The notes under the pieces were generated by a model. The model made no database searches. It was not told the DNA's origin and was given only the letters and a program-made list of their open reading frames with translations. Source: Allomyces macrogynus ATCC 38327 (Eukaryota > Blastocladiomycota > Blastocladiomycetes > Blastocladiales > Blastocladiaceae). Taken from it: 64,000 bases of DNA. The stretch spans positions 398,567 to 462,566 of the forward strand of contig GG745328.1 in assembly GCA_000151295.1 (NCBI GenBank), in the 5' to 3' direction. Of this stretch, positions 32,969 through 39,390 are shown one piece after another. The translations under genes were made by a program, and so were the position numbers. Position 1 is the first letter of the stretch. The number at the start of each line of letters is the position of its first letter.

Positions 32969-33687
32969 GATCAATTTCTTGGGCCATGTCGACATCCCGA
33001 CCCTCTCGTCGAGAGAGTCATGTGCGCGCCACGGCAGCGCCCACGATCCGCACGCCGATCGAGCATCTGCCAACGCATAGCCTCGAGCTGCTTTCTGGTC
33101 GTCTTTGTTGCGACGACCGTGGCGCCAAAGGGTCCAAGGACCTGTTTGCATTTGCGCTCGCTTTGGCAAGCTTTTTTCGTGTCGGCCGTGCGTGTGGCCT
33201 TGGACCGTCGCGATTGCCCCGACTGTCATGTTTCGTGGCGACAGGAGGCTGATTTCGTCCGGTTTTACCTTCACTACGGACCGCAATACGTTGTTTTTGG
33301 CAGCGACGAACAAGATGAAGATCCGCACGAGTACCCCGTCGCTGTTGAAAGCATGAAGGTGCACAATCCAATGGGTGATGACCAGCGCTTCCGAATTAAT
33401 TTGCGTTCCCTCACCATGACGCTGCATGTTCTGGACACGGCCGAGGATATAGGTCCCCTGTACCGCACATGCCCTGTATGTTGCGGCTGCTCAAGATCAT
33501 TCGTGATACAGAAACGACGGAAACGTTCTTCAATTCCGAAACGTGTACCAATGACCTTGCTGCGGCCCTGGCCACTCTGCCAAACTTGACCGTGTTTGAG
33601 CACGGGTTACTGGAGGTTGATGATGTACCACGCGTGCTTCAAGGACTCGTGTCACGCACAGGTCATCACGGTGATCAGAATTCACTA
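32969..33687 (+). pseudogene. F-box-like/LRR protein, copy 3, 5' part (transposon-interrupted)
   Basis: An F-box-like start (IEHLPTHSLELLSGRLC, then FAFALALASFFRVGRAC) is followed in other frames by LRR-family text: LRSLTMTLHVLDTAED, then LRLLKIIRDTET and LAAALATLPNLTVFEHGLL. The last stretch runs up to the left edge of the repeat-flanked transposon. LRR-like coding resumes beyond its right edge at about 36.8 kb. The frame changes within the part suggest it was decaying or carries sequence errors. Confidence 0.45.
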
Positions 33688-33700
33688 TTTCAGGTTCAAA

Positions 33701-34015
33701 GTGGGAAAAGCATCAAGCATGTGGGAAATCATGGGTCCAAACTGGGATGAGGCAAGCACAAAGTGGGACGATTTATCCATTCTGGGATTATGCAGCAACA
33801 GGCGGGATTACGCGAAATCATTTGGGATAACCGGAAAACAAGTGGGACTAACGACTGAATACAGCTTGGGATCACTGACACTAAGTGGGACAAGCATCAA
33901 CAAAAGTGGGAAATCCATCAACAAATTGGGAGAAGTATGGACCAAAGTGGGATAATCAAGCTATGAATTTGGGAAACCAGTGGTCCAAAGTGGGACTGGC
34001 GTGGACCAATTGGGA
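33701..34015 (+). repeat. Left phased repeat array of the transposon
   Basis: Motif starts: 33701, 33721, 33742, 33763, 33782, 33802, 33822, 33842, 33866, 33885, 33906, 33926, 33947, 33969, 33990 and 34010. The average step is 20.6 bp, about two turns of B-DNA. Between motifs the sequence is only loosely conserved. In the inner half GTGGGA and TTGGGA tend to alternate. Confidence 0.9.
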
Positions 34016-34081
34016 ACGTGACTGCATTGGACTCCCTCAGCCAAGTCAAGCTGTTGTTGATGACAGTCAACCAGCCAGCCA

Positions 34082-35940
34082 TTGTCCACCCCCATCTCTC
34101 AGCCACCTCTGACCTACCACATGCGGGTGCAAAACATCATGGCTCAACATGCTGCCCACGCGGTGCAAGCTGCTGCTGCGCATCAGCAAGTTGCCCCTGT
34201 GCTGCCTGCTCATGGCCCAGCCCCACCTGTCAACAATGACCCATGGCCCAGTCATGGCTGGAATTACCAACCAGCTTGCTGCCATGCTTGCTGGTGCCAC
34301 TGAGGGCCCGCCCATACATGACTGCAACATGCATGATAATGGGGATGAGGACAAGGGTGGCCATGACAATGACGAGATGGAGGGTGTGCACAATGACCAG
34401 ATGGAGGGTGGTGAAAACGAGAACAATGGTGTGCTGCAGTTTGATCTGCATGCCCCATGCCCAAACTGCCATGGCCACCACCAGCACAAGTGGAACGCCA
34501 AGGGGCGAGAAGAGATCATCTGTATGTATTTTGAGCAGAACCTGTCAGTCAAGCAGATTGTGCAGCTCCTCCCATTTGGGAACAAGTTTGCAGTTGTATG
34601 TCATCCACAACTTTGAGTTTGGCAAGCTTGTGCAAATGCCATGTGGTGGAGAGCACAGCCACAAAGAGGAGCAAATCGAGTTCTTGATGGGTGAGGTCCG
34701 TGTCTTTCTCCACTTTTTTGTGCAGTTTTGTGGCCCACTGACTGGGCAACCTGCTCCTCACCCAGGTCATGGAAAACGCAGTCACGCTTGAGCAGCTGCA
34801 CTGGCGGCTCTAAGACTGGTTCAAAGTCAACATGATGAAGGAAACAATTGTGTGGTACCTGTGTGAGGAGAATTTCATGCTCAAGCGGCTTATGCACAAG
34901 GTTGTCACCATGAACAGCCCTGAGTGCATAGCTGAGTGCTGCATTTGGTGTGAGCAGTTCCTCAAGCACCACACCTTCCATGATGTGCTGCCCCTTGACG
35001 AGTCGGGCTTCAACCACCTGCACTACAGTTATGGGTGTGCGCCATGCAGCCAGCATGCAGCCCAGGTTGTGCCAATGCAATGCAGTTGCAACACGTCGCT
35101 TTGCCTGTGCATGGGTGAGCATGGTGCAGTTTTGTCAAGGCAGTGCTCAGTGTGTTCAATGGGGAGCTGGTGCGCAGTTTCATGTCCTTCCTTGTTCCTG
35201 ATCGTGTGGTTGGCTCACGTTTTTGCGTGCAACCTACATGTAGTTGACAGTCCTGTTGTTGTGTTGCGCGGAAGAAAACCAGACTCTGCTCCTTCTTCTC
35301 GATGTATTCCTTTCTGCGGATCTCGCGTCCTTATATATCACAGTGGGCAAAGCATGCAGCCAACTCGGGTGGAGAAGGAGGACGTGATGGGGGACAAATA
35401 TACGGAAATAGTGGAGAGACGATGGAGATGACAGGATGGGAGGGAGGTGGCGACGTGGCAGAGCGTAAGCATCTGCAGCGTCGGTTCGGCCAGGTTCCCG
35501 AGGCGCTGGCGCGGTATGATGGCGTGGTGGCGCTGGCGTCGAGGAAAGTTCGTGGGTCGCGTCTTGCACATTCCACACTGGCCGCGGGATATGCACGTGT
35601 AGCACGCGCACCAACAAGCTCAACCACAACCTTGTGCAAGCACTTGCTCAGCAGTACCCGGACCAGAACAAGACGATTCTCCTTGACAACGTCCGCTTCC
35701 ACCACAACCACAAAGCTGCAGTGGTGCTCAAGCAGGCTGGGCATCACCTTTACTTTCTCCCGCCATACTTGCCACACCTCAATGCCTGTGAGCTTGCATT
35801 CTTGTCAATCAAGTTGATGTTCAAGTGCAACAACCCAGCGGACCAGGGCCCAATCATGGAGCAGATCGAAGCAGCCGCCTGACGGATCATGGGCCAGCAG
35901 GCGGTGGGCTGGATTCACAAGGTGAACCACTGCGTGCAGG
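34082..35940 (+). pseudogene. Transposase remnant (IS630/Tc1-like DDE fold)
   Basis: Pieces in several frames give a recognisable transposase. An acidic N-region precedes CPNCHGHHQHKWNAKGREE and a helix-turn-helix-like stretch (YFEQNLSVKQIVQLLPFG). First catalytic Asp: LPLDESGFNHLHYSYG near 35.0 kb. FNGELVRSFMSFLVP lies in another frame near 35.16 kb. Second Asp: ILLDNVRFHHNHKAA near 35.69 kb, followed by YLPHLNACELAF with the Glu. The triad spacing fits IS630/Tc1-mariner relatives. Frame changes near 34255, 34595, 34790 and 35140, a stop after EQIEAAA, and an extra block of about 400 bp before the second Asp show it is inactive. Confidence 0.7.
35205..35615. other. Extra block inside the transposase
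   Basis: Between the FLVPDRVVG segment and NLVQALAQQYPD, where relatives need only a few dozen residues, there are about 400 bp of non-transposase sequence. It may be a nested insertion or a large unrelated expansion. I could not define clean terminal repeats or a target duplication. Confidence 0.4.
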
Positions 35941-36254
35941 CTCATGTGCACGACAAACCTGTCTCCTCAGCTGGTGCTGTGGTTGCTGCAAGTGTGGGCG
36001 CAGGTGCAGTGGGTGTGGGGGAGGCCGTGGGTGCTGCTGAAGGTGGTGTGGGTGTGGGTGCTGTTTGATTGCTGGCATGTTTTGGGAGTTGGCATGGGTT
36101 TTGACCGTTTTGAATGTGCAGCGCGTTTTTTCTTAGACGTGTGCCGTGCTGAGTGCCCTGGGCGTGAAGACAATTCGAATCCATGACCTGTTTGTCTTGC
36201 TGTTGGTTCGGTTGTTGCCTGTCAGGAGAGAAAACGTTGGGGACTGCAGTTTGG

Positions 36255-36485
36255 TCCCACATTGAAGTGAACAGTCCCACTTTGGACCACTCTAATTCTG
36301 TTTTCATCCTTGGGCTGTCCCACTTTGGTTCATACTTTTCCCAAACGCCTGATACTTTCCCCACTTTGGAGCACATGTTTCCCAAATGGTGTGGCGCATC
36401 CCAAATTGATCTGATTAGTCCCAAATGATGCCTTCTGATCCCAGTTTGCATTTGGATCGTCCCACCTGTTTTCGAAAAATCCCAG
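36255..36485 (-). repeat. Right phased repeat array of the transposon (inverted)
   Basis: TCCC-motif starts: 36255, 36275, 36318, 36339, 36358, 36380, 36399, 36419, 36439, 36460 and 36480. The step is 19-22 bp, with one 43-bp step consistent with a lost copy. Orientation is opposite to the left array. Confidence 0.88.
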
Positions 36486-36499
36486 AATGGTTGAAGTAT

Positions 36500-37140
36500 A
36501 GGAGAGCGAGTGTCAGTCATTGAGTCGCCGCTTAGACTTTGACGCCATTGACATCGCATGCGCTCGTCCCCTCTACCACGCGTGGGGTGACGATGACGTT
36601 TGTGCTGTTCTCGCCATCTTCTTCGTTCTTCGCCCTCCAGTGCACTCACTTTCCGCCTCGCCTGCGGCCTGGCGTCTGTCATTGGTGCAGCTCGTCATGA
36701 GCCATATCGCATAGTCATCAACGTTGCTCGACCTGCATTTGAATAGCCAAGTTGATGAATGGGTCCGTCAGGATCACGACGCTTGTGAGCTGAACCTTGT
36801 TGGATGCGAAATGGTGTGTAATAATGCGGGGCGTGGCATATGGGCGGCTCAGCTACCCATCGCTGCGCATCCTCAACTTGCGCGCAACGTGGCTCGACGA
36901 TCGCGCAGCCAAGGGACTCGTCACTTGGGCCAAGGAATGAAATTCTCGTTGCGTGCGCAGTTGCAGCGTCTCTCACCCAGTCGTGCAAGGTCGAGTGTGG
37001 AGACTGGAGCTTACTGCCAACGTACTCTCGCCGCCCCTCACAAAACCATTGCAACCTGCGGGCCCACGAAGAGATTATGCCCTGAAGAACACATGCAATT
37101 TTCGAATGAGGGGCCTGCATGGTGTGACATGGAACCCAGC
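36500..37140 (+). pseudogene. F-box-like/LRR protein, copy 3, 3' part
   Basis: Near 36840-36950 one frame reads YPSLRILNLRATWLDDRAAK, then GLVTWAKE. It aligns with LRALDMSECGLDDHIVEGLLKWAQK at the end of family copy 1. The flanking codons are interrupted by stops. Its place just beyond the transposon's right array suggests it is the severed C-terminus of the gene whose start lies at about 33.0 kb. Confidence 0.45.
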
Positions 37141-38151: not shown

Positions 38152-39390
38152 CGCCTAACGGTGGAGCACGTTGCCATGAACAACAAGCTGCCGCTCCCGC
38201 GGAACGGATACCCAATTCTTGAAGCTTTCTCGTACCAACAGCTGCCGCTCCCGCGGAACGGATACCCAATTCTTGAAGCTTTCTCGTACCAACAGCTCAA
38301 CGTATTTCTGTCCGTGGTCCATGGCATGCTCCGTTATGACGCAGGTACGGTCGCTGATGCGCGAACTGTCATCAGTGGCCCTACCACGTTTGTGATGGCA
38401 GATGCAGATGCGAATCTTGAATCGCAACGGCTAGCTCACGCATCTGCCCGCGAAAACGTTGCAACAGCAGTTGATGAGGTCTATTCTTCTGGTTTGCAAG
38501 CCATTGAAGAGGATCTTGCTCCTGCGACTGATCTCGCCATTGCAGACCCGCGCATTCAGGAACTTCCAGTTGCTCTGGAAGCAATGAATCATGGCCCACA
38601 AGTGCGTCGTGCAGATCCTCTCTTTGTCTTCAAGGAGTACGGCCCATCGGGTCGCGGCCTACGGCTTTCCGAACAATGGTACATCGAGCTGTGGGCTGAG
38701 CCCGGCCAATGGCTTCCCGTGTGCGAGACCGAATCACCAGTTCCACAGTCGGTTCGCATGTGGTTTGATGGCCCAACCCCAAAAGCCCAAGCTGTGTCCA
38801 CAGTGCGGAACAAGCTTGTTGATTGGTTTTCCAGCCGTGTCGATGCAACCATGATGACCTGGGTCGTGCTCCCATCGCACGGTGGTGTCGCCTTCTTGTT
38901 CCACAATTGGGCATTCATGGCCGGCACAGGCACTGGCCAAGGTCAAGTGGAAGCGGAAATGGCCAGCCATTACCAACAAGAGCACTCACGGTTTGATATC
39001 GTCCCGCTTCCAACGTCTGCGCCCCACTCGTTCCGCCCGCCGACTCGGTTGGCTGGTCGGTCGTTGCATCTCGTCCAGGTGTGGGGGCGACAGATTTTGG
39101 ATGCTTCGATCCTCCCGCGCCTGTCGCCTTCTCAGACAAGTCGGCCCTGGGTCCTGGAGCCGCTGGACAGTGGCATGTACCGGCTCAAGTCGGGCATCGA
39201 GTTCCTCTGCGTGGGCCTCAGTCGGCAGCCCGAGACGACCATGGACCCGGAATCCTCAGCGCAGGTTTGGGTCCTGCTCATGAAGCAGCCCGACCAAGTC
39301 GCGTTCATGCTGGCCGGGCCCGTTATTTCGCTGCATCAGTTTGTCGATGGAGCGCTCACCAACTCGCCACGGTTTTTGACGGCCCGATGA
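38152..39390 (+). CDS. Continuation of the GTPase frame beyond TGA; unknown domain
   Basis: The frame is the same as the preceding exon, separated from it by a single TGA (38149-38151), and runs open to a stop at 39388-39390. It could be the second half of the same protein (nonsense mutation, sequence error or readthrough) or a separate gene starting at an internal Met such as 38176. I tested GT-AG combinations around the stop and found none that keeps frame. It contains an exact in-frame tandem duplication (38186-38293). The rest (WYIELWAEPGQWLPVCE, MWFDGPTPKAQ, HGGVAFLFHNWAFM) matches nothing I know. Confidence 0.5.
   Translation, partial: RLTVEHVAMNNKLPLPRNGYPILEAFSYQQLPLPRNGYPILEAFSYQQLNVFLSVVHGMLRYDAGTVADARTVISGPTTFVMADADANLESQRLAHASARENVATAVDEVYSSGLQAIEEDLAPATDLAIADPRIQELPVALEAMNHGPQVRRADPLFVFKEYGPSGRGLRLSEQWYIELWAEPGQWLPVCETESPVPQSVRMWFDGPTPKAQAVSTVRNKLVDWFSSRVDATMMTWVVLPSHGGVAFLFHNWAFMAGTGTGQGQVEAEMASHYQQEHSRFDIVPLPTSAPHSFRPPTRLAGRSLHLVQVWGRQILDASILPRLSPSQTSRPWVLEPLDSGMYRLKSGIEFLCVGLSRQPETTMDPESSAQVWVLLMKQPDQVAFMLAGPVISLHQFVDGALTNSPRFLTAR
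38186..38293 (+). repeat. Exact 54-bp tandem duplication
   Basis: 38186-38239 and 38240-38293 are identical and in frame. Each adds 18 residues beginning LPLPRNGYPILEAFS. The complete identity points to a very recent event or a collapse/duplication artefact. Confidence 0.95.

Follow-up and report, generated by a model that had tools for sequence, protein, structure and literature searches.

What is the role of a five-base motif that recurs every two helical turns at both ends of a transposon, and which protein would read it? We examined this question at a locus of the fungus Allomyces macrogynus ATCC 38327, within a 64,000-nucleotide stretch of contig GG745328.1 (hereafter, the window). The left array (33702-34011) holds 16 [TC]GGGA motifs, 15 of which are TGGGA, at steps of 19-24 bp (mean 20.6 bp); they start at 33702, 33722, 33743, 33764, 33783, 33803, 33823 and 33843 in the first half and at 33867, 33886, 33907, 33927, 33948, 33970, 33991 and 34011 in the second. 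The right array (36255-36480) holds ten TCCCA motifs in inverse orientation at steps of 19-21 bp, interrupted by two gaps of 41-43 bp, each equivalent to one lost motif. The original prediction of at least 16 left and at least ten right motifs at about 20 bp was thus borne out, and the exact inverted match that it placed between the arms is present, with a length of 20 bp (33979-33998 vs 36272-36291) in place of 18 bp. The longest TGGGA chains in the window (18-24 bp steps) comprised 10 motifs on the forward strand and 6 on the reverse strand, both inside the element; the maximum in 100 second-order Markov sequences of the window's length, scanned on the forward strand, was 2. Outside the element, no 5-mer in the window formed a chain of more than four (NNNNN excepted).

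The element mapped in Table 1 is, judged from its sequence, a broken IS630/Tc1/mariner-type transposon, as indicated by a DDE_3 domain, DD34E spacing and a TA target at the family level. In members of this superfamily, the last two catalytic residues are about 34 residues apart, the target duplication is TA and the DNA-binding domain is of the helix-turn-helix type. The DDE_3 domain lies at 35634-35882 (Pfam PF13358, E 5.4e-12), with the codons of the second D and the E at 35685 and 35790, and 34 residues separate these two residues both in the window remnant and in the protein AMAG_18515. Frameshifts, in-frame stops and a nested insertion disrupt the gene: there is a frameshift near 34590 in the N-terminal part, an in-frame stop near 34811 and a further downstream frameshift in the middle part, and an in-frame stop at 35880-35882 in the C-terminal part. 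The 363-bp solo-LTR-like insertion within the gene is absent from the other three long copies. This repeat has many relatives elsewhere in the genome, and one genomic region (L025) contains it with no arm. The proposed bounds, 33688..36496, do enclose a transposon; on the left they start about 5 bp inside its terminus (33683), and on the right they end at a truncated arm, which in complete copies reaches some 80 bp beyond this point and has about four additional sites. Elsewhere in the window, a short tandem duplication within an open frame (38161-38330) encodes the repeated peptide LPRNGYPILEAFSYQQ.

Table 1. Features of the transposon copy in the window (positions are those of the window).
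Feature	Position	Strand	Characteristics	Basis
Left terminus	33683..33701	+	CACTATTTCAG..., mutated relative to the family terminus CTCCTTTTCAG	Terminus scan of all copies, alignment of 23 arms
Left terminal array	33688..34015	+	16 [TC]GGGA, fuller site CAAWKTGGGA, mean step 20.6 bp	
Transposase remnant, N-terminal part	34149..34691	+		ORFs; alignment with L009 and L010; family protein matches AMAG_18515
Transposase remnant, middle part	34766..35253	+	First catalytic D, codon at 34997	
Nested solo-LTR-like insertion, 363 bp	35254..35616	.	TGTTG...CAACA, imperfect 5-bp flanks AGTCC/AGCTC	
Transposase remnant, C-terminal part	35617..36068	+		DDE_3 match
Right terminal array, inverted	36255..36495	-	10 TCCCA remaining; outer ~80 bp missing	
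Possible right-terminus remnant (tentative)	36497..36504	-	TATAGGAG	By-eye comparison with the L021 terminus

No intact transposase reading frame was found in the four long copies. The joined protein had no Pfam match to a DNA-binding domain up to E 1, its structure model was too poor for use (mean pLDDT 44), and no solved structure matched it by sequence. In word-based protein searches, in which 7995 and 200 word-sharing candidates were scored, the sole relative found was AMAG_18515 of A. macrogynus ATCC 38327. This protein is itself a family member, in which most of the reading-frame fragments of copy L009 recur unchanged, and these searches returned no relative outside the array-bearing family with which the pairing of array and transposase could be tested.

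Searching the genome (54.0 Mb, 75 contigs) with the whole element and each arm, we found a minimum of 17 copies that have a whole or partial arm, namely the window element and L009-L024. Several are internally deleted, and DDE_3 remnants occur in four; a genome search gave four DDE_3 matches, three of them above the cut-off, and all belong to this family. TGGGA arrays were seen in 23 arms from 16 copies, and the seventeenth copy (L024) holds three motifs and seems to have an outer unit joined directly to an inner one; other copies thus carry the arrays too, and no case of copies without them was encountered. Four copies (L021-L024) show one arm or part of one with one terminus, with no partner arm within the stretch examined. 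Complete arms are about 330 bp long with 15-16 sites each. Among the 23 arms, 192 of 246 successive TGGGA distances were 19-22 bp and 25 more were 39-43 bp, read as one motif lost, and the mean periodogram had its maximum at 20.3 bp and a harmonic at 10.2 bp, in agreement with the autocorrelation peak expected at 20-21 bp.

The family terminus reads TA-CTCCTTTTCAG-GTTCAAAGTGGGA, with the outermost site starting about 14 bp inside it. TA lies directly outside 15 of the 22 recognisable termini, a count that omits the truncated or degraded right ends of the window copy and L009, and the other seven have CA, TT, TG or CG. The TA target therefore holds for the family; the window copy itself reads TT at this position on the left (33681-33682) and has lost its right end. 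TA is present at both ends in L014 only. With the DDE_3 domain and the DD34E spacing, the TA outside most family ends supports the identification of the element as a transposon. At the L011 locus, an element-free duplicate stretch on contig C34 can be aligned across the right flank up to a few bases from where the element inserted; on the left, the flank of this duplicate has diverged too far for an exact empty site to be defined. This diverged duplicate (L082) may be usable for dating insertions. With the right flank of the window copy as query, no homoeologous empty site was found. The family ends (e.g., L009, L014 and L016) each open with a pyrimidine-rich run followed by CAG (CTCCTTTTCAG), which resembles a 3' splice site pointing inward.

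Taken together, we consider it probable that the window holds an inactivated member of an IS630/Tc1/mariner-type transposon family, present in few copies, whose terminal inverted repeats of about 330 bp are composed of about 16 CAAWKTGGGA sites, two turns apart and predicted to be bound by transposase. The motif is most likely the predicted binding site of the transposase, repeated for cooperative assembly; a regular array in both arms, in inverse orientation, is as expected of end recognition. The element's own transposase would bind the CAAWKTGGGA sites, and neighbouring molecules, similarly oriented, would touch one another. A long row of transposase could then coat each end and pair both ends, bringing the catalytic domains to the CTCCT/TA terminus, with the inner sites contributing by avidity and cooperativity.

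We investigated how far such arrays are specific to the family. Three TGGGA motifs at 18-23 bp steps had 157 matches in the genome (12 for a reversed control pattern), of which 142 fall in regions taken around the 17 copies. Nine of the other 15 sit at four other places, one of them a minisatellite, and six were unplaced. Regular arrays of TGGGA are thus nearly confined to this transposon family, and the predicted restriction to transposons holds apart from these few places outside. A TCCCA stretch near C65:532470-532710 was an ordinary minisatellite with periods of 22 and 66 bp. The genome gave no MULE match. No TGGGA array occurred in the three that were read of seven loci matching DDE_1, another DDE family, in which the element ends were not located and one locus (L085) is partly masked. 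An 18-bp array in L085 and a 21-bp array in L086 were rejected as ordinary minisatellites; the former (518-1094) comprises 32 copies of a GC-rich unit (GCGCGAGAGCAGGACGGC) about 2 kb or less from the DDE_1 match.

This distribution bears on the alternative that a host protein, whether transcription factor, silencer or architectural protein, occupies the array, recruited by the element or repressing it, and that the transposase needs the terminus only. Host factors can act at transposon ends, the short core and high number of sites are as in regulator arrays, and conservation of the first ~14 bp (CTCCTTTTCAG...) is separate from that of the array. However, few arrays exist outside the family, none was seen in the three DDE_1 loci read in the same genome, and the array has been kept in both arms in the inverted arrangement that end recognition would require. 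We regard a host protein as an unlikely reader of the array, if the best placed among the alternatives.

The averaged site over 272 motifs was CAAWKTGGGA, with only weak bias in the bases beyond. Left and right arms align along their length as old inverted repeats. Between eight left and eleven right arms (88 pairs), identity was 84% at the TGGGA cores and 58% elsewhere, and the size of this contrast is somewhat uncertain because alignment programs favour conserved columns. The core columns were set by the window's left arm, which lies outside the 88 pairs; both window arms were omitted, as were L019_L and L022_L, which match right arms better. Within left arms, core and remaining positions were 88% and 77% identical, and within right arms, 86% and 74%. 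Along the unit, identity was high at the core and the bases directly before it and lower elsewhere, which is what a binding site would be expected to give. The conservation of the cores relative to the rest between arms points to selection on the TGGGA motif, as far as can be judged from sequence. Some cores have decayed, including the outermost in L010_L and L019_L.

The arms also retain traces of their growth. In L010_R, 30-bp blocks matched other blocks of the same arm at 29/30 positions (lag 202) and 26/30 positions (lag 84); the right arm of L011 gave 27 and 27, and left arms gave up to 24-25, compared with at most 21 in shuffle controls (fifty shuffles each, four arms). The lags of the strong self-matches are close to whole multiples of the step. 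Block-wise duplication of units therefore accounts for part of the growth of the arrays, and duplicated units are present in the individual copies L014 and L017. Both features would suit the idea that the inverted repeats captured old expansions of minisatellite type and that the motif has no function. In that case, however, neither the divergence of the rest of the unit around retained cores nor the output of Tandem Repeats Finder, which for the window gave 3.4 units at 74% on the left and no repeat in the right arm, would be expected, and we consider a functionless motif improbable.

Transposase assembly might be favoured if the sites shared one face of the helix, as had been proposed. In three complete arms, the best vector strength of the sites was 0.78-0.84 at 10.2-10.3 bp per turn, whereas at 10.5 bp, the helical repeat of relaxed B-DNA, it was 0.22-0.47. 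At this low coherence, the sites therefore drift round the helix on relaxed B-DNA; the inner eight sites hold one side at 10.5 bp (0.86-0.88), and the outer eight do so less (0.39-0.83). The single-face arrangement thus stands at about 10.2-10.3 bp per turn and is lost at 10.5 bp, where the sites wind round. When the order of the spacings was shuffled, a fraction of 0.31-0.90 of the shuffles reached the observed coherence. Strict phase correction of the spacings was thus not seen: as shuffled order phases equally well, the spacing is regular without a sign of extra phase correction.

The helical repeat of nucleosomal DNA is close to 10.2 bp, and the harmonic at that value, together with A-rich steps recurring every ~20 bp, could suggest that the motifs are spaced as a signal to chromatin or in DNA shape, by phasing nucleosomes or by intrinsic curvature. 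We find this quite improbable: in a wedge-model calculation, curvature was not above that of dinucleotide shuffles in six of eight arms (L009_L was borderline, 0.06, and L014_R more bent, 0.01), and a shape signal has no need of a conserved five-base core. That the array is a coding exon with a heptad-like W-D/E repeat after a splice acceptor TTTCAG is scarcely credible, since successive motifs occupy all three frames, the counts of substitutions by codon position (31/30/28 and 36/30/42) are without clear periodicity and none of the frames stays open in all 22 arms examined, even though one frame is open across the arm in L011_L and L010_R, stops are fewer than in spacer-shuffled controls in three of seven arms (0.02-0.03) and the TTTCAG at the ends is acceptor-like.

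If transposase binding is the function of the array, the closest known systems are instructive. Tc1-type elements have DD34E and a TA target, and Sleeping Beauty also has repeated sites in its inverted repeats. PMC4120734 describes two or three direct repeats per end in Tc1-mariner inverted repeats and, in Bari1, three repeats that are all bound by transposase. The Allomyces element resembles Bari1 and Bari3 in its DDE transposase and inverted repeats holding direct repeated sites, but it has about sixteen at a fixed two-turn step against two or three. According to PMC3573991 and PMC4079207, Galileo and other Foldback-type elements have long inverted repeats with internal tandem repeats, which in Galileo contain secondary transposase sites, and the latter source attributes mostly P- or Mutator-type transposases to them. 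The Allomyces element shares the long inverted repeats with internal tandem repeats, whereas the repeats are ~210 bp in Galileo (P superfamily) and ~220 bp in Tetris, compared with a unit of ~20 bp and a TA target here; nor are the Foldback/Galileo transposase type and target duplication of more than 2 bp matched by DDE_3 and TA. FB4 of Drosophila has repetitive terminal inverted repeats and, according to PMC8277862, is said to be annotated TcMariner in Repbase, with a target duplication quoted as 10 bp. Through this annotation, FB4 moves nearer to the Allomyces element, and repeated terminal inverted repeats in or near the Tc1/mariner superfamily are thus not unheard of.

At each end of Tn7-like elements there is an array of transposase (TnsB) sites, the two arrays being inverted relative to each other (PMC8649781). 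The arrangement is that of the Allomyces element; Tn7 differs in having three sites on the left and four on the right and in a transposase of the TnsB type that works with partner genes, whereas between the Allomyces arms only the DDE_3 remnant was identified. In piggyBac and piggyBat, transposase binds short repeated subterminal motifs, and PMC11707139 describes transposon arrays as thought to give avidity in end pairing, with extra sites also inhibitory, as in piggyBat, where they can restrict activity. These elements have few sites and another transposase and target than the Allomyces element. The target of piggyBac is TTAA. The original prediction, in contrasting the arrays with DDE transposons that have only short inverted repeats or scattered motifs, had overlooked such precedents: the Tn7-like arrays (PMC8649781), the Galileo inverted repeats (PMC3573991) and the Tc1-mariner direct repeats (PMC4120734).

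Arrays at Tn7-like, Galileo and Foldback ends are thus already known, and what appears to be new here is that a Tc1/mariner-type element has about sixteen phased sites per end. As reported relatives have two or three sites, sixteen exceed what transposition seems to need, a point against the transposase reading. This number, above that known for relatives, also suggests a long protein chain on each end. A bolder form of the transposase reading, that Tc1/mariner-type ends have been turned into platforms of about 16 sites (phase of ~20.4 bp) for filament-like transposase assembly, is tentative and, in our view, may well be wrong; we rate its probability slightly lower because FB4, with its repetitive inverted repeats, is reportedly annotated TcMariner. 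In the open-access literature, we found no Tc1/mariner-type element described with filament-type end recognition or with around sixteen phased sites, and nothing direct on Allomyces transposons and Foldback repeats.

Few eukaryotic cut-and-paste enzymes have been studied as well as the Tc1/mariner transposases. Ends with sixteen sites would allow the control of end pairing by site number, helical spacing and avidity to be tested in a natural system, and they would bear on why unrelated transposons (Tn7, Galileo and the Allomyces element) repeatedly evolve arrays. The array also provides an end signature for seeking further elements in early-diverging fungi.
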